In this document: positions 39,601 through 47,120 of the stretch, piece after piece | Position numbering within the stretch: position 1 is the first letter of the stretch | Layout: the number at the start of each line of letters is the position of its first letter | Translations under genes and position numbers: made by a program | The notes under the pieces: generated by a model | Databases searched by the model: none | Told to the model about the DNA's origin: nothing | What the model saw: the letters and a program-made list of their open reading frames with translations, nothing else | Assembly (NCBI RefSeq): GCF_016405855.1 | Contig: NZ_JAEFCA010000004.1 | Coordinates: forward strand, 282,075-346,074 | DNA: 64,000 bases | From: Flavobacterium sp. IB48 | Lineage (GTDB): Bacteria > Bacteroidota > Bacteroidia > Flavobacteriales > Flavobacteriaceae | Reading direction: 5' to 3'

Positions 39601-40120
39601 TCAGTTGATTATTAATAAAGAATTAGGTTTAGCAAAAAACGAAAACCCAATTCAAGGTTCGTTCATCATCGAAGAATTAACCGATTTAGTGGAAGCTGCA
39701 GTTCTTCAAGAATTCGACAGAATCACAGAACGTGGCGGAGTTCTAGGCGCAATGGAAACGATGTACCAAAGATCTAAAATTCAGGAAGAAAGTTTGTATT
39801 ACGAAACTTTAAAGCACAACGGCGATTTCCCAATTGTGGGTGTAAATACTTTCTTGAGTTCTAAAGGTTCACCAACGGTAATTCCGGCAGAAGTTATTCG
39901 TGCTACAGAAGAAGAAAAACAATATCAAATTACAATGTTGGATAACTTGCATAATTTCCACGAAGCAAAAGTAAACGAGCATTTAAATACGTTACAGCAA
40001 GCGGCTATTAAAAACGAAAATTTATTCGACCATTTAATGGAAGCTACAAAGGTTTGTTCTTTAGGTCAGATTACTTCGGCGTTGTTTGAGGTTGGTGGGC
40101 AATATAGAAGGAATATGTAA
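36680..40120 (+). CDS. icmF: Fused isobutyryl-CoA mutase (IcmF type)
   Basis: 1146 aa carrying all three parts of IcmF in one chain: a B12-binding domain with the DGHD cobalt-ligand motif (His25), a MeaB-like GTPase chaperone domain with P-loop GTGGAGKS at 203-210 and NKFDKRG, and a C-terminal mutase barrel ([26 protein letters not shown]). It interconverts isobutyryl-CoA and n-butyryl-CoA with adenosylcobalamin, the GTPase protecting the cofactor. Classic methylmalonyl-CoA mutases have separate MeaB and no such fusion. Intact, monocistronic, ended by a terminator. Confidence 0.9.
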
Positions 40121-40141
40121 GGATTTTTTTTTATGATATGG

Positions 40142-40172
40142 AAAACCTCTCAAGATTATTGGGAGGTTTTTT
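40142..40172 (+). terminator. Terminator of icmF
   Basis: AAAACCTCTC pairs with GGGAGGTTTT around 9 bases, followed by T-run; the stem core (aacctctc) recurs at 43589 and 45307. Confidence 0.85.
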
Positions 40173-40188
40173 GTTTTTATTTTATTGT

Positions 40189-40211
40189 TTACGGTTTACC
40201 GTAATTTTTTT
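40189..40211. promoter_or_regulatory. Palindrome TTACGG-TTTA-CCGTAA followed by T7
   Basis: Perfect 6+6 inverted repeat 40189-40204 with T7 to 40211, just after the icmF terminator and about 445 bases before the reverse transcriptase start. It could be a second terminator, or an operator: the same half-sites occur at 16525-16540 upstream of the ATPase defence operon. Confidence 0.5.
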
Positions 40212-40649
40212 AGGAAGGTTTTTTATATGTTTGCTAAATATCAGTTTCTTAATATTTAGGCAAAACAAAGATTATGCTTTAAATGAACAAAGAATATTTT
40301 TAAAATGAAATCAAATATGGGCCAGAAGGTCAGAATGTTACGTTTTACTCGGTAATACCTTCTAAGATATACGTTAGTCGGGAAAGAAAATACCAATTTC
40401 CAAATTTCCCTTTAAATAAATAGAGAGAAGTAAAGAAATGGTTGCTAACAGTGTTAAAGCTGTTTGCTTCTTGAGGTTGAATCTGAAGAATCTATTTCTA
40501 AGCATTTTAATGATGTTTAAGTGATTTATTACAAAGATAACAATTTCGATACCTGAAGAGAGTAGTGTTGAAATAGCATTTTATGTGAAAGCTTCGAAAG
40601 GCATGTGCATTCTAAACCTGCTACTATTAATCTGGCCCTCCTTTTTTAT
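40212..40649 (+). ncRNA. Structured non-coding leader of the reverse transcriptase
   Basis: About 440 bases with no ORF but several plus-strand hairpins: AGAAGGT (40324-40330) with ACCTTCT (40357-40363) enclosing GTTAC/GTAAT; GGGAAA (40380-40385) with TTTCCC (40405-40410); GCTAACAG (40444-40451) with CTGTTTGC (40460-40467). Several defence reverse transcriptases carry a template or partner RNA immediately upstream, so this is a candidate ncRNA. Boundaries and transcription are not established. Confidence 0.45.
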
Positions 40650-42167
40650 ATGGAAATAGAAGAATGGTTTAAATTAAAACGTTATCCTCATATTGGAGAA
40701 CCAATAACACAAAAAGATTATAAATGGATTAAGAGGTATGTACAAGATGAAAACTGTATTAAAAAACATAGTTTTTTACCCTTAGTACATAAATGTATTG
40801 TTCAAAGAAAATATCGTGCTGATTTATCTACAAATACCAGAAATCCTAGTGGAAAAAGAAGACGAATTATAGGAACTCCTAAAATCAGAAACATTTATTA
40901 TTCATCTCATTTAGATTCTTTGATATTTTCATATTACAATTATCTACTAAGTGAAAATTATAAAGAATTGATGAAACTAAAAAATTTCAATAATTCAATC
41001 GTTGCTTATCGCAAAATTCCACTATTTGAGGGTTCAGAGAAAAACAAATGTAATATTGATTTTGCTAAAGATACTTTTGAATATATTGAAAAGAATAAAG
41101 AAAAAAAACTCAGTGTAATTGTTGCAGATGTAACATCTTTTTTTGATAATTTAAACCATAAAATATTAAAAAAACAGTGGAGTAGACTACTAAATGAGAA
41201 AACCTTACCAGACTGCCATTTTAATGTATTTAAAGCACTTACAAATCTACGATACGTAGAATCAGATCAATTATTTAATAGTTATTTGGGAACTATGATT
41301 GTGGAAAAAGGTATTCCTAATTCAGATAAAAAAGAATACAAAAGAATAAAAATTAATTCTAATAAATATTTCAAAGAAAAAAATGCTGTTGCTTATTGTA
41401 GTAAAAGTGATTTTTTAAAGAATAATTTAAATCTTATTATCTCTGCCAATAGCACTAAAGGAATACCTCAAGGTAGTCCGATAAGCGCAACATTAGCGAA
41501 TGTTTATATGATGGATTTTGATCAGGAGGTGTATGATAAGATTGTATCGAACAAAGGTTTTTATCAAAGATATAGTGATGATTTAATTATTATTTGCGAG
41601 CAAGAATTTGAAGATGATATAATTAAGTTTGTTAGAGACAGAATTCAGAATTTAGTAAAATTAGAAATTAGTGAAAGTAAGACTAAAGTTTACAGATTTG
41701 AAGAATTAAATGGAAAATTTTTAGGTTTTGAAATAGACGAAAAAACAAAAGAACCTAATTTTAATAAAACTTTAGAGTATTTAGGTTTTGAATATAATGG
41801 GCAAAAAATTTTAGTTAAAACTTCGGGTTTCTCTAAGTTTTATAGATCAATGAAAAGATCTTTTAAAAAATCTACATCTTTGGCAATTAACAGCAAAAAT
41901 CCAGATAGGGACATTTTTAAATCTAGATTATATAAAAGATTTACATATAAAGGGGCAAGTAGAAAATTAATTTTTCGCCCATCAAAAGATAATCCAAGAG
42001 TATACTTGAAAACAAAAGAATATTATTGGGGAAATTATTTGAGTTATCTTTATAAAGCAAATGATAGCATGAAATCAATAAATAGATCTGATGCCATAAA
42101 AAGACAAAGTAGAAAAATTTGGAAAAGTTTTCACAGATTAATGAGATATCATGAAAGTCGATTATGA
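40650..42167 (+). CDS. Stand-alone reverse transcriptase, defence-type candidate
   Basis: 505 aa from ATG 40650 (MEIEEWFKLK); a longer frame from 40605 adds 15 unlikely residues. RT motifs in order: VIVADVTSFFDNLNH with Asp160, KGIPQGSPISATLANVY near 270, and the catalytic YSDD at 308-311 within YQRYSDDLIII. Long N-terminal region (AYRKIPLFEG..KCNIDFAKDTFEYI) and about 180 C-terminal residues, no maturase X, no integrase or endonuclease. This matches stand-alone DRT/unknown-group RTs rather than retrotransposons or group II introns; subgroup (DRT2-like?) cannot be assigned. Followed by duplicated repeats and an XRE module. Confidence 0.82.
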   Translation: MEIEEWFKLKRYPHIGEPITQKDYKWIKRYVQDENCIKKHSFLPLVHKCIVQRKYRADLSTNTRNPSGKRRRIIGTPKIRNIYYSSHLDSLIFSYYNYLLSENYKELMKLKNFNNSIVAYRKIPLFEGSEKNKCNIDFAKDTFEYIEKNKEKKLSVIVADVTSFFDNLNHKILKKQWSRLLNEKTLPDCHFNVFKALTNLRYVESDQLFNSYLGTMIVEKGIPNSDKKEYKRIKINSNKYFKEKNAVAYCSKSDFLKNNLNLIISANSTKGIPQGSPISATLANVYMMDFDQEVYDKIVSNKGFYQRYSDDLIIICEQEFEDDIIKFVRDRIQNLVKLEISESKTKVYRFEELNGKFLGFEIDEKTKEPNFNKTLEYLGFEYNGQKILVKTSGFSKFYRSMKRSFKKSTSLAINSKNPDRDIFKSRLYKRFTYKGASRKLIFRPSKDNPRVYLKTKEYYWGNYLSYLYKANDSMKSINRSDAIKRQSRKIWKSFHRLMRYHESRL

Positions 42168-42181
42168 TATTTTCTTTGTCT

Positions 42182-42661
42182 CCTGCTAGCGCGAGCGTCT
42201 CGCTCGTGAACGCAAAGTAATGCACGAGCGAGACGCTCGCGCCAGCAAAAACAACAAAATTCCATAAAGTTTGTCGTTTCGACGTAAGGAGAAATCTCCA
42301 CAAGTAGCTCCATATAGAATGTCGCCAATCTTTGTCGAGTTTCTCGTGAAGATTTCTCCTTATGTCGAAATGACAAGATTGTATGTTAATTGGGGTTAAT
42401 ATAACTATTCAACCATCTCCCTCCTGCTAGCGCGAGCGTCTCGCTCGTGAACGCAAAGTAATGCACGAGCGAGACACTCGCGCCAGCAAAACAACAAAAT
42501 TCCATAAAGTTTGTCATTTCGACCGAAGGGAGAAATCTCCACAAGTAGCTCCATATAGAATGTCGCCAATCTTTGTCGAGTTTTTCGTGAAGATTTCTCC
42601 TTACGTCGAAATGACAAGATTGTGTGCTAATTGGGTTGAAATATAACTATTCAACAATCTC
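42182..42661. repeat. Tandemly duplicated palindromic repeat block
   Basis: Two near-identical direct copies of about 240 bases (42182-42420 and 42423-42661). Each has a GC-rich hairpin (gcgagcgtctcgctcg ... cgagcgagacgctcgcgc) and an inverted pair 'gtcatttcgac...gagaaatctcc' / 'gatttctcctta..gtcgaaatgac'. Both copies end with the last bases of the 104-aa gene, so the duplication took in that gene's 3' end. Same family as 10190-10515. ORFs in it are only read-through of the repeat. Confidence 0.8.
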
Positions 42662-42961
42662 CCCAACAAACCCCAAAAACTCCATTTCATCCATAGGAAA
42701 CAAATGTAGAATCGTTTCCAAAATCAGGCTTACATTAATAGTTGTACTTTTATCCTTTTTAGAAAAATTATGCATGTCATTATCAAGTGCTAGAATGCAT
42801 AATTTCAGCAAATCGGTAATGAGGCAGCCGAGTTCTAAATAATTGATCACTTTAAATTGTGCGGTATAAGAATTGGCTTCGTTGGTTGGTTTTAGCGTTG
42901 TAAAATACTGAGCGGTTAATTTTTGCAGTTTTTGTAGCTTTTCTGTTTCGTTCGTTTCCAT
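42647..42961 (-). CDS. 105-aa-family hypothetical protein (module B)
   Basis: 104 aa, cytosolic, no recognised family. Paralogue of the 107-aa protein at 12711-13034 (shared LKP, NSYT, KV.NYLEL, DLLK, ILE..LHLFP, DEMEFL). As there, the gene is divergent from an XRE regulator. Its 3' end lies inside the duplicated repeat block and has been copied into it. The reverse transcriptase gene is convergent with it. Function unknown. Confidence 0.68.
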   Translation of the reverse strand: METNETEKLQKLQKLTAQYFTTLKPTNEANSYTAQFKVINYLELGCLITDLLKLCILALDNDMHNFSKKDKSTTINVSLILETILHLFPMDEMEFLGFVGEIVE

Positions 42962-43139
42962 AAGGGGTATATTTTAAATGATTTACAATTTGACTTTTAT
43001 GAAATTATTATAAGAAAAATTGTACTTTTGTTTGATTCGGCGAAGGAAGAAATAGATTGTATTTTACCAAACCGATTCTGCGGGTATCGTACTGTAGTAA
43101 ATAAGTTTGTTACTCGTGGAAGTTTTCACACTTAATTAT

Positions 43140-43147
43140 TATCTTTG
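43140..43147 (+). promoter_or_regulatory. XRE gene -7 box with near-leaderless start
   Basis: TATCTTTG (TAnnTTTG) only 4 bases before the ATG at 43152, so transcription would begin at or next to the start codon. Confidence 0.5.
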
Positions 43148-43151
43148 AATT

Positions 43152-43571
43152 ATGAGCACACTAACAAAACCAAATCACATAGGGCGAAAAATAAGCCGTA
43201 TTCGTGAACTTCGTGATATGAAACAGGAAGCTTTAGCGCAGGCTTTGGGAATAAGTCAGCAAACAATATCTACTATTGAAAACAGCGAAACTATAGAAGA
43301 AGATAGACTTTCTGAAATAGCAAAAGCTCTTGGTGTTACAGTTGATGCAATTAAGAATTTTTCAGATGAAGCAGCAATTAATTATTTTAATACTTTTAAT
43401 GAAGCGGTATCAGATAGTAGTTTCGGAAGTATTCATAATAACAAATGTACTTTCAATCCATTAGATAAATTAGTAGAATCTTTTGAGGAAAATAAAAAGC
43501 TTTACGAACGTTTGCTTCAAGCAGAAAAAGATAAAATTGAGTATTTAGAAAAATTGCTAAATCAGAAATAG
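43152..43571 (+). CDS. XRE-type HTH regulator (module B)
   Basis: 139 aa. Residues about 10-65 are a typical XRE domain (GRKISRIRELRDMKQEALAQALGISQQTISTIENSE) with a DRLSEIAKALGV second half. After residue 100 comes a coiled coil (LVESFEENKKLYERLLQAEKDKIEYLEKLL), probably for dimerisation. Divergent from the 104-aa gene, as in module A. Terminator follows at once. Likely regulator of the module and perhaps of the reverse transcriptase (inference). Confidence 0.82.
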   Translation: MSTLTKPNHIGRKISRIRELRDMKQEALAQALGISQQTISTIENSETIEEDRLSEIAKALGVTVDAIKNFSDEAAINYFNTFNEAVSDSSFGSIHNNKCTFNPLDKLVESFEENKKLYERLLQAEKDKIEYLEKLLNQK

Positions 43572-43588
43572 TAAATTTTATATAAAAG

Positions 43589-43617
43589 AAAACCTCTCAG
43601 AAATGAGAGGTTTTTTT
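43589..43617 (+). terminator. Terminator of the module B XRE gene
   Basis: AACCTCTCA-GAAA-TGAGAGGTT with T7. Confidence 0.88.
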
Positions 43618-46028: not shown

Positions 46029-46484
46029 ATGATAGTACAGCTATATTTAAATAAAATAGAGGTTTTGCAAGATGAAGAATCAAAGACTACATTTTCAGAT
46101 TTTGACGATCTAGAGCTTTGTACTCAAAAAATAAAAGGACGTAATAGCGATCTGTCTTTTACTCTTGATTTTTTATTGAATAAACAAACTCAAGAATGTA
46201 CAACTGTAAATACTGAAGTAATAAAAATGCTTTCAGATCATTTAGGATTATTTTTTATAGGAGATCAAGAATCTGAGAATGTTTGTTTTGCCAACAGCAT
46301 AGAAGTGAGGCCAGAATACAGGAAAAGTTTCAGATTGATCGATTTACTGGACTATATTTATGCTTTTGCACATTCTTATGTTTTTAAAGAATCTCAAAAA
46401 ATAATATTGACATCAGAAACTGATTTTTTTTGGAAACTCGTAAAAATAGGTTCAAACTTAAGAAAACAATTGCCTGATATTTAA
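46029..46484 (+). CDS. Hypothetical protein upstream of a Hint-like gene
   Basis: 151 aa, cytosolic, not recognised. Mixed alpha/beta with a LDFLLNKQTQECTTVNTEV region and a helical C-terminus (SFRLIDLLDYIYAFAHSYVFK). It precedes the Hint-like protein gene by 100 bases on the same strand and may be a functional partner. No catalytic motif seen. Confidence 0.45.
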   Translation: MIVQLYLNKIEVLQDEESKTTFSDFDDLELCTQKIKGRNSDLSFTLDFLLNKQTQECTTVNTEVIKMLSDHLGLFFIGDQESENVCFANSIEVRPEYRKSFRLIDLLDYIYAFAHSYVFKESQKIILTSETDFFWKLVKIGSNLRKQLPDI

Positions 46485-46583: not shown

Positions 46584-47120
46584 ATGGAACCAGATTCTAA
46601 TCAACTATTAAATGATTTAACCCTTAAATGTACGGCAGGGGACACTAAAATTGCTACTCCTTCAGGAGAAAGAGCTATCAGTAATTTGCAAAGAGGAGAC
46701 TCAGTTTTGGCATTTTCTGCAAAAGTGGAATCGGGCAAACTTGAACTATCTTCATCAGAAACGAAAGTTACTTTTAGTCAAGGCACTCCTGAATGGTATA
46801 TTACTGCACTTTATATTACTTTAGGATATGACAAAGAAATTATCTGCACTTCAGACCAACCTTTTTTACTTGCAAATGGCAAATACACTATAGGTTCAAA
46901 ATTAGGACCAGGACAAGAGCTTGTTGATTGGCAAGGCAAACCTGTGTTTATTCACATGATTTCAATTGGAACTTATAAAGGAGTGATTCATAACATTTCT
47001 GTTGGAGATTCTGAATTTGCCAGCCCTAATGGCCATTTGTTGTTGGCGCAAGGAGTCATAATAGGAGACTTTGCTTTTCAGACGTCTTTTGATTCTCTTC
47101 CAGATAATTTAAAAGCATAA
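46584..47120 (+). CDS. Minimal Hint-domain-like protein
   Basis: 178 aa. The start CTAGDTKIATPSGERAISNLQRGDSVLAF is the Hint/intein block A signature with the nucleophile-type Cys after about 16 residues. Block B reads TSDQPFLL, where inteins and hedgehog Hint domains have a conserved His (TxxH). The C-terminal block FASPNGHLLLAQG lacks the HN that ends self-splicing units. So the fold is likely, the autoprocessing activity doubtful. No signal peptide. It may modify or bind another protein; unknown. Confidence 0.6.
   Translation: MEPDSNQLLNDLTLKCTAGDTKIATPSGERAISNLQRGDSVLAFSAKVESGKLELSSSETKVTFSQGTPEWYITALYITLGYDKEIICTSDQPFLLANGKYTIGSKLGPGQELVDWQGKPVFIHMISIGTYKGVIHNISVGDSEFASPNGHLLLAQGVIIGDFAFQTSFDSLPDNLKA

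Follow-up and report, generated by a model that had tools for sequence, protein, structure and literature searches.

In the DRT2 system of Klebsiella pneumoniae (KpDRT2), a 120-nt template lies between two ACA motifs; when it has been copied into repeats, these contain a sigma70 promoter and an open frame without end, as described in PMC12039810 and PMC11100668. The repeat unit is divisible by three in 42/42 of the close homologues examined there (PMC12039810), and a length of 111 nt with the promoter TTGACA-N17-TATAAT is published for Klebsiella-like systems (PMC12039810). The Klebsiella protein Neo is reported to be helical (PMC11100668), and most of its conserved residues are said to reflect conservation at the nucleotide level (PMC12039810). 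Wilkinson et al. foresaw that other promoters, specific to phages, may be reconstituted among the diverse DRT2 systems (PMC12039810). DRT9 is described as synthesizing poly-dA, a homopolymer templated by a U-rich loop, with no coding product (PMC12483538). In Bacteroidota, the housekeeping promoter has the consensus TTTG/TANNTTTG, refined to TAHHTTTG at −12 to −5 (PMC6847099); the consensus is also given in PMC9723704.

Here, we examined a reverse transcriptase (RT) gene and its leader in the window, that is, the whole 64-kb stretch of Flavobacterium DNA that was analysed. The locus very probably encodes an antiphage system of the DRT2 type, which would form a hidden gene by tandem copying of an RNA template and drive it from a Bacteroidota promoter created at the repeat junction.

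The RNA upstream of the reverse transcriptase

The stretch upstream of the RT gene is gene-free (40121–40649), as the initial annotation had read it. We aligned it with the corresponding regions of eight close homologues, the RTs of which share 63–99% identity with that of the window: four loci of the same genus (L018, L019, L020, and L021), a Bacteroidetes metagenome-assembled genome (L001), Algoriella (L002), Dyadobacter (L003), and Belliella (L004). With the exception of the near-identical L018, the homologues are divergent up to approximately position 40315; the alignable part begins at that point and reaches a run of T residues at 40642–40647 on the plus strand. The RNA is predicted to occupy positions 40319–40638 of the plus strand (approximately 320 nt, with estimated ends), where GGGCCAGA (40319–40326) pairs with TCTGGCCC (40631–40638), and the T run lies just past it. 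The region is conserved in homologues from several Bacteroidota families; a lack of such conservation had been named in the initial annotation as grounds for giving up its reading.

The predicted fold is more stable than expected by chance (minimum free energy −81.2 kcal/mol, compared with −66.6 ± 5.5 for shuffled sequences; z = −2.68, with 1 of 100 shuffles equally stable), in agreement with the leader hairpins noticed earlier. The RNAalifold consensus contains 69 pairs, 11 of which have changes on both sides, whereas shuffled alignments gave a mean of 3.9 and none of 500 reached this number (8 distinct rows), a comparison that favours the structure on the cells paired, since this alignment was also the source of the structure. 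When the pairing partner was slid along as a control, 0 to 2 two-sided pairs were counted. At the middle pair, for example, the eight distinct rows have G-C in four, U-A in two, C-G in one, and a mismatch in one. The covariation proposed as a check in the initial annotation was thus observed, and the alignment and fold together support the view that the leader is a conserved, covarying, structured noncoding RNA (ncRNA).

A phylogenetic tree of 70 RTs placed clade A (12 sequences, including the window), clade B (3), and clade F (6) each as a single group with full support, and clade C (10) encloses L080. L018 was left out of this tree as a near copy, so that clade A there comprises 12 of its 13 members, and among the loci found here clade A occurs only in Bacteroidota. 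The 3′ domain of the RNA was also made into a covariance model, which detected one strong copy in the window's own genome, with a second match (E = 0.157) that we took as chance. Among 52 sources it gave nine matches, all in clade A and all, L018 apart, the sequences from which the model was built. Among 22 later loci it gave five: four clade-A loci fetched after those used to build the model (L070, L071, L072, and L090; E = 1e−20 to 1e−22) and L073 (E = 6e−8), with none in the other 17. Clades B (3 loci), F (6), and C (10) gave no match, and neither did the outer branch of the tree or the gammaproteobacterial controls. Rfam recognized no RNA family at the gathering score in the 64-kb window, and in 12 clade-A loci a conserved promoter from which the ncRNA could be transcribed was looked for and not found.

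A predicted template and its hidden frame

Within this RNA, a predicted template, or repeat unit, of 159 nt (40390–40548, plus strand) is bounded by two copies of ATACC. Copy 1 (40390–40394) forms the 5′ end of the template and is the predicted end point of the cDNA, and copy 2 (40549–40553) is the predicted re-annealing site at which copying would restart. The unit is 159 nt long in three and 153 nt long in six of the nine sequences first compared, and clade-A units of 153, 156, and 159 nt indicate net differences in threes. In all 13 clade-A loci found, the unit is divisible by three and its antisense strand is free of stops when concatenated. A unit bounded by ACA was considered and rejected: the ACA pairs in the window's leader are 83, 92, and 161 nt apart, none of these distances being divisible by three, and there is no pair 80–200 nt apart with a spacing that is.

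On the minus strand, the unit carries TTTG (40401–40404), the predicted −33 element, near one end and TATCTTTG (40532–40539), the predicted −7 element, near the other, the latter resembling the consensus TANNTTTG given in PMC6847099. After concatenation, TTTG lies 20 nt from the −7 element in 13/13 clade-A loci. The junction reads TTTG-N20-TATCTTTG in eight of the nine sequences first compared, with TATCTTTA in L003; by inspection, the junction of the window is TTTGGAAATTGGTATCGAAATTGTTATCTTTG, and no sigma70-type TTGACA/TATAAT pair was seen across it. In genomic order, the −33 place is occupied by ACTC in every one of the 13 clade-A loci, so that the promoter would be complete only after concatenation. 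However, the −33 motif is reported to be weak and far less evident in mapped F. johnsoniae promoters (PMC6847099), and the lone genomic −7 element might therefore already act. The comparison strongly supports a junction promoter of the type used by the host phylum, formed across adjacent repeats.

The predicted Neo coding unit, also on the minus strand (40390–40548), is stop-free and contributes 53 codons per repeat (EIVIFVINHLNIIKMLRNRFFRFNLKKQTALTLLATISLLLSIYLKGNLEIGI). Its predicted start codon, an ATG at 40503–40505, lies 26 nt after the −7 element; an in-frame ATG at this distance is present in 13/13 clade-A loci, with A at −3 in 10 of them, and L071 has two open frames as well as an ATG at 20 nt. 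Antisense frame 1 is without stops in all nine sequences first compared, whereas both other antisense frames contain stops in all nine; on the sense strand, stops occur in four of nine sequences in frame 0 and in all nine in the other frames. In dinucleotide shuffles of 20 units, the circular antisense frame was open in 9 to 91 of 500, and random change from the window unit at the same columns would leave the frame open with P = 0.03–0.14 for each of seven homologues, which are not independent of each other.

No purifying selection on the amino acid sequence of Neo was detected (pN/pS 0.92, with no codon-position bias), and conservative amino acid changes are hardly in excess. Identity is 0.81 and 0.86 at the template edges and 0.74 in the middle, compared with 0.77 before and 0.81 after the template in the rest of the RNA. 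Only stops are avoided, and the protected features are thus the open frame and the template edges rather than a particular protein. The same absence of clear amino acid constraint would fit a DRT2 cDNA that acts as DNA, whether as a decoy, a signal, or a single strand, with its open frame left untranslated. We regard this as improbable, although it is the best of the alternatives, because a single antisense frame is open in 9/9 sequences while the others are interrupted in 9/9, because conservation extends to the promoter spacing and to the ATG at 26 nt, and because the Neo of Klebsiella is described as poorly conserved too, yet its frame is needed (PMC12039810). A structure prediction for a single linear Neo unit, computed from five sequences, gave one helix (mean pLDDT 79, pTM 0.38), which agrees with the helical Neo described in PMC11100668. 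Taken together, these comparisons strongly support a template that holds a hidden gene.

The position of the template ends was approached with a generic scan, in which the end motifs were unspecified and which asked for shared 4-mer ends, a length divisible by three, an open antisense frame, and a promoter split over the junction with a spacing of 18–21. The ATACC unit of 159 or 153 nt had the top promoter score, alone or tied, in the window and in 8/8 homologues. When the scan was applied to 150 random window segments, 68 contained any candidate and 3 reached a score of 12. A second repeat, CAATTTC (40394 and 40541), delimits a 147-nt unit that is likewise in frame and open, and the exact jump point at ATACC is therefore a predicted one. 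Rolling-circle copying with a template switch at this 7-nt repeat would equally yield a stop-free frame, and in L002 and L004 its unit equals the ATACC unit in promoter score and comes first in the scan. In the window, L018, L020, L021, and L003, however, it has a lower promoter score, with TTTA or TTTC in place of TTTG; L019 has no such candidate, and in L001 the repeat is degenerate. ATAC is common to clades A and B, and we consider a switch at CAATTTC improbable to a slightly greater degree than an untranslated DNA product. In the consensus fold, TTTCC of copy 1 pairs with GGGAA upstream of the template; the CAATTTC repeat can pair with the same GGGAA, and its role may lie in the stem and not in the jump.

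Keeping to ATACC as the template end, we set a fixed rule (an ATAC pair, a length divisible by three, an open frame, and TTTG-N20-TANNTTT[GA]) before the 22 later loci were considered. All four of these loci with an RT identity of 67–71% obey the rule, and the 18 with an identity of ≤52% fail it; because the RT of L090 is identical to that of L001, only three of the four new clade-A loci are independent. The rule found nothing in 4,980 window segments and nothing in 14,320 segments taken from RT genes and the DNA downstream of them (0/19,300 overlapping segments on both strands). Among 71 upstream regions, 17 obey it, namely, 13 in clade A, 3 in clade B, and L006, which is the window itself; since clade B was known before the rule was set, it is no independent test of the ATAC rule. 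Two annotated drt2 loci served as positive controls in a scan of like design that used 3-mer ends and looked for sigma70 promoters: in Photobacterium (L049) it recovered a 111-nt unit with a perfect TTGACA-N17-TATAAT, and in Psychrobacter (L050) the result was less clear, with 10/12 promoter matches. The template, the hidden frame, and the split promoter had all been absent from the initial annotation.

The reverse transcriptase and its genomic setting

The RT frame extends over 40605–42167 of the plus strand in the list of open reading frames. Translation likely starts at the ATG at 40650 rather than at the GTG at 40605, because homologues begin at the aligned codon and the GTG falls within the ncRNA; this gives a protein of 505 amino acids (40650–42167). 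The motif RYSDD (41568–41582) is identical in the five RTs aligned, so that the Y-x-DD active site is intact, and RVT_1 (62 bits) was the sole Pfam match up to E = 0.1, with no maturase, endonuclease, or integrase domain detected in the frame at that threshold. The earlier description of a stand-alone YSDD reverse transcriptase lacking these domains was thus accurate. An AlphaFold2 model of the RT computed from five sequences had a mean pLDDT of 39.5 and was not used.

Membership of the Drt2 family was judged by profile scores, the tree of 70 RTs being one of Drt2 relatives. Among the best 25 of 52 PADLOC families, Drt2 profiles scored 455 (E = 9e−137) and 300 bits, and UG17, the next UG family, scored 90 bits, leaving a margin of 365 bits. 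The closest solved proteins are the DRT2 RTs of PDB 9c0i and 9lje (E ~1e−51), for which the organism is given as Klebsiella (PMC12039810, PMC12596737). The NCBIfam model NF041746 (“Drt2”) scored 338 bits, under its curated cut-off of 390 bits, and that naming rule does not apply to the protein; the cut-off is a threshold for naming and says nothing of mechanism. These scores support the assignment of the RT to the defence-type DRT2 (UG2) family, and with the covarying leader they support the earlier guess of a defence-associated RT with an upstream RNA of the DRT2 or DRT9 type. The profile and alignment evidence together show both the RT family and the conserved, covarying ncRNA.

A stand-alone RT with an upstream ncRNA is also common to retrons and DRT9-like systems, in which the RNA would be copied once, as msDNA, or as a homopolymer. 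This reading is very unlikely here, considering the Drt2 lead, the lack of any Rfam family at the gathering score in the window, and retron models far under their cut-offs (of the two listed, one gave 50 bits against 235 and the other 22 against 600). A group II model scored 88 bits against 300. The group II intron, retron, and DRT9 readings were accordingly rejected, and the placement with group II introns or retrons that the initial annotation had offered as its refutation did not materialize. No related viral contigs were found, and phage records gave four matches, all at ≤32% identity.

A genome of the same species, G478, is without the RT and shares positions 40100–40190 and 42179–43592 with the window; the site of the cassette is occupied there by another stretch of 1.7 kb, which contains a frame of 403 amino acids. 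Because 40121–40190 of the gene-free stretch is also present in this RT-less genome, the cassette proper spans approximately 40191–42178 on the plus strand and holds the ncRNA and RT only. In G478, a further element of approximately 17 kb, with phage-type integrases and a TIR protein like SpbK, parts the copy of 40100–40190 from the mutase gene, the own last bases of which (to 40120) stay at the far end of the element. With copies at both ends, the last 21 bases of the mutase gene thus flank this element as a direct repeat. Another genome, G526, has a DRT2 cassette at the same place, with an RT that is 99% identical. The comparison of these two genomes indicates that the site is an insertion hotspot, at which the ncRNA and RT alone can be exchanged as a unit. 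Among eight neighbouring frames of the window, the search for defence genes gave one weak type IIG-like match. The mobile repeats reported as neighbours in the initial annotation are present, and the XRE gene is a neighbour on the chromosome, but it is probably outside the system because the RT-less genome of the same species has it as well. Although the site is a hotspot of turnover, an ordinary regulatory 5′ untranslated region in front of a degenerate RT relic is hardly credible given an intact 505-amino-acid frame with its active site and an RNA that covaries and is conserved between families.

Related clades, proposed mechanism, and comparison with known systems

Candidate units recur outside clade A. 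Clade B has ATAC(C) ends, a unit of 141 nt, and TTTG-N20-TATCTTTG. Clade F (L007 and L074–L078) has ATTC or TTTC ends, units of 129–141 nt, and TTTG-N20-TA[TA]CTTT[AG], and clade C has AATT-like ends, units of 150–162 nt, and CTTG-N20 with scores of 10–11 of 12, L081 being assigned to it on its third-listed candidate. The proposals for clades C and F draw on recurring agreement within each clade and a spacing of 20; they are weaker than that for clade A because an open frame and a promoter are preconditions of the scan itself, which allows spacings of 18–21. In L073, an open unit of 144 nt with TTTG-N20-TATATTGC was recognized by eye; the locus fails the fixed rule, and its −7 element is TANNTTGY-like, as of an alternative sigma factor. 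In the outer branch of the tree (26 rows), there was no convincing template unit (for L082–L089 in the generic scan only, with a best score of 10); the TTTG-N21 units of 129 and 126 nt in L041 and L044 were not relied on. No template unit was found in L013, L014, L017, and L048, near the gammaproteobacterial controls, and no trusted one in the inner-branch loci L008, L010, L046, L079, L080, and L091, among which L010 and L046 each have an otherwise unsupported candidate with a score of 12.

For the locus in the window, we propose that the RT would bind the ncRNA made directly upstream of its gene and, upon infection, copy the 159-nt template. The nascent cDNA end, complementary to ATACC copy 1, would re-anneal to ATACC copy 2, and copying would go round repeatedly to give a tandem-repeat cDNA. 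Once this is double-stranded, every repeat junction would hold TTTG-N20-TATCTTTG, the housekeeping-sigma promoter of the phylum, from which an endless frame with 53 codons and an ATG in each repeat would be transcribed. The product, Neo, would be a repetitive, hydrophobic, helical protein that stops growth and aborts the infection. We infer concatemer synthesis, the phage trigger, second-strand formation, expression, toxicity, and defence by analogy with the Klebsiella DRT2 system.

Across the clades, we lean slightly towards a broader proposition: that the split promoter of the DRT2 hidden gene is adapted to whichever sigma factor the host lineage uses, with TTTG-N20-TANNTTTG in Bacteroidota, and that the template ends are clade-specific, namely, ATACC in clades A and B, ATTC or TTTC in clade F, and AATT-like in clade C, as against ACA. 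If this is true, the cassette would be confined to its host phylum, and tandem reverse transcription would offer a general and evolvable way of building a promoter that suits the lineage. Clade A offers a clear prediction, testable in Flavobacterium, of a like mechanism with a swapped junction promoter and different template ends, and its pattern provides a search rule for hidden genes. This suggests that pipelines keyed to ACA, to sigma70, or to the NCBIfam cut-off could miss such systems. Among the literature matches listed, supplements aside, no neo gene or promoter of a Bacteroidota DRT2 system is described: the term “Bacteroid” is absent from the main texts of PMC11100668 and PMC12632851, and the available portions of PMC12596737, PMC12483538, and PMC13213688 contain no mention of a Bacteroidota DRT2 neo. 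The “more divergent clades” referred to in PMC11100668 may include the present clade.

Group II intron and retron RTs share the RT fold and catalytic motifs with the present enzyme, which differs from them in falling under the curated cut-offs and in having no maturase domain. DRT9 (UG28) likewise combines a Class 2 UG RT with an upstream ncRNA, whereas the RT described here scores as Drt2. The closest likeness is to the DRT2 system of K. pneumoniae, as presented in PMC12039810 and PMC11100668, in the RT family, the single-gene operon, the upstream ncRNA, and the template in the middle of that RNA. Also shared are a unit divisible by three, a stop-free antisense frame, a promoter split over the template ends, and a helical, hydrophobic Neo, which in the present case is predicted. 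The two systems differ in the length of the RT (505 amino acids here, compared with 425), the RNA (approximately 320 compared with 280 nt), and the unit (153–159 compared with 111–129 nt), in the template ends (ATACC compared with ACA), and in the promoter (TTTG-N20-TATCTTTG compared with TTGACA-N17-TATAAT). A further difference from the Klebsiella system is that the ATG lies 26 nt after the −7 element here; Bacteroidota mRNAs are described as naturally lacking a Shine-Dalgarno sequence (PMC6847099). Judged from these comparisons, the locus represents a known kind of system, which differs from the described one by its predicted template-end motif and by its use of a putative promoter of the host phylum.

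Naming and phylogeny of the Drt2 reverse transcriptase

The reverse transcriptase (RT) of the window's DRT2 cassette (gene at 40650–42167, plus strand) scored 338 bits against the NCBIfam model NF041746, below the Drt2 equivalog cut-off of 390 bits; therefore, automatic annotation may fail to give it the name drt2. In the RT tree, the sequence from Dyadobacter (Spirosomataceae) clustered with those of two loci of the window's own genus (L020 and L021), whereas Algoriella (Weeksellaceae) and Belliella (Cyclobacteriaceae) were placed together, along with a Bacteroidetes metagenome-assembled genome. Given these groupings of RT sequences across family boundaries, the cassette has probably been transferred between families.

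Surroundings of the cassette

In G478, a genome of the same species lacking the RT, an element of approximately 17 kb (L065, G478:C1:1949000–1960000, and L066) lies between the mutase gene, which ends at position 40120 of the window, and a copy of window positions 40100–40190. The direct repeat at this element corresponds to the last 21 bases of the mutase gene. Two integrases of the phage type and an AAA protein are encoded within the element, as is a TIR protein that matches SpbK; it also contains a weak HEPN-like match. Its site is one of integration and can host defence genes.

On the 3′ side of the cassette, inspection by eye revealed two tandem copies of a stretch of approximately 242 bp (42179–42663), each containing a long palindrome, GCGCGAGCGTCTCGCTCGTG...CACGAGCGAGACGCTCGCGC. 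Both G478 and G526, the latter a genome with the cassette at the same place, carry relatives of these copies at the corresponding site, and the repeat is REP-like or MITE-like. Further downstream, a 151-aa frame (46029–46484) shows similarity to a portion of a type IIG restriction enzyme (E-value 2.5e−6 in PADLOC), with a Pfam Type_ISP_C match below the cut-off, and the next frame (178 aa, 46584–47120) has a weak Hint/PT-HINT match.

Upstream region of a clade A neighbour

The 3′ domain of the ncRNA was detectable in L073, a neighbour of clade A (E-value 6e−8). Upstream in this locus is an open unit of 144 nt bounded by ATACC, with the junction TTTG-N20-TATATTGC. In Flavobacterium psychrophilum, a TANNTTGY box is described as belonging to a further sigma factor motif, SM5 (PMC9723704), and the TATATTGC of the L073 junction is close to this box.
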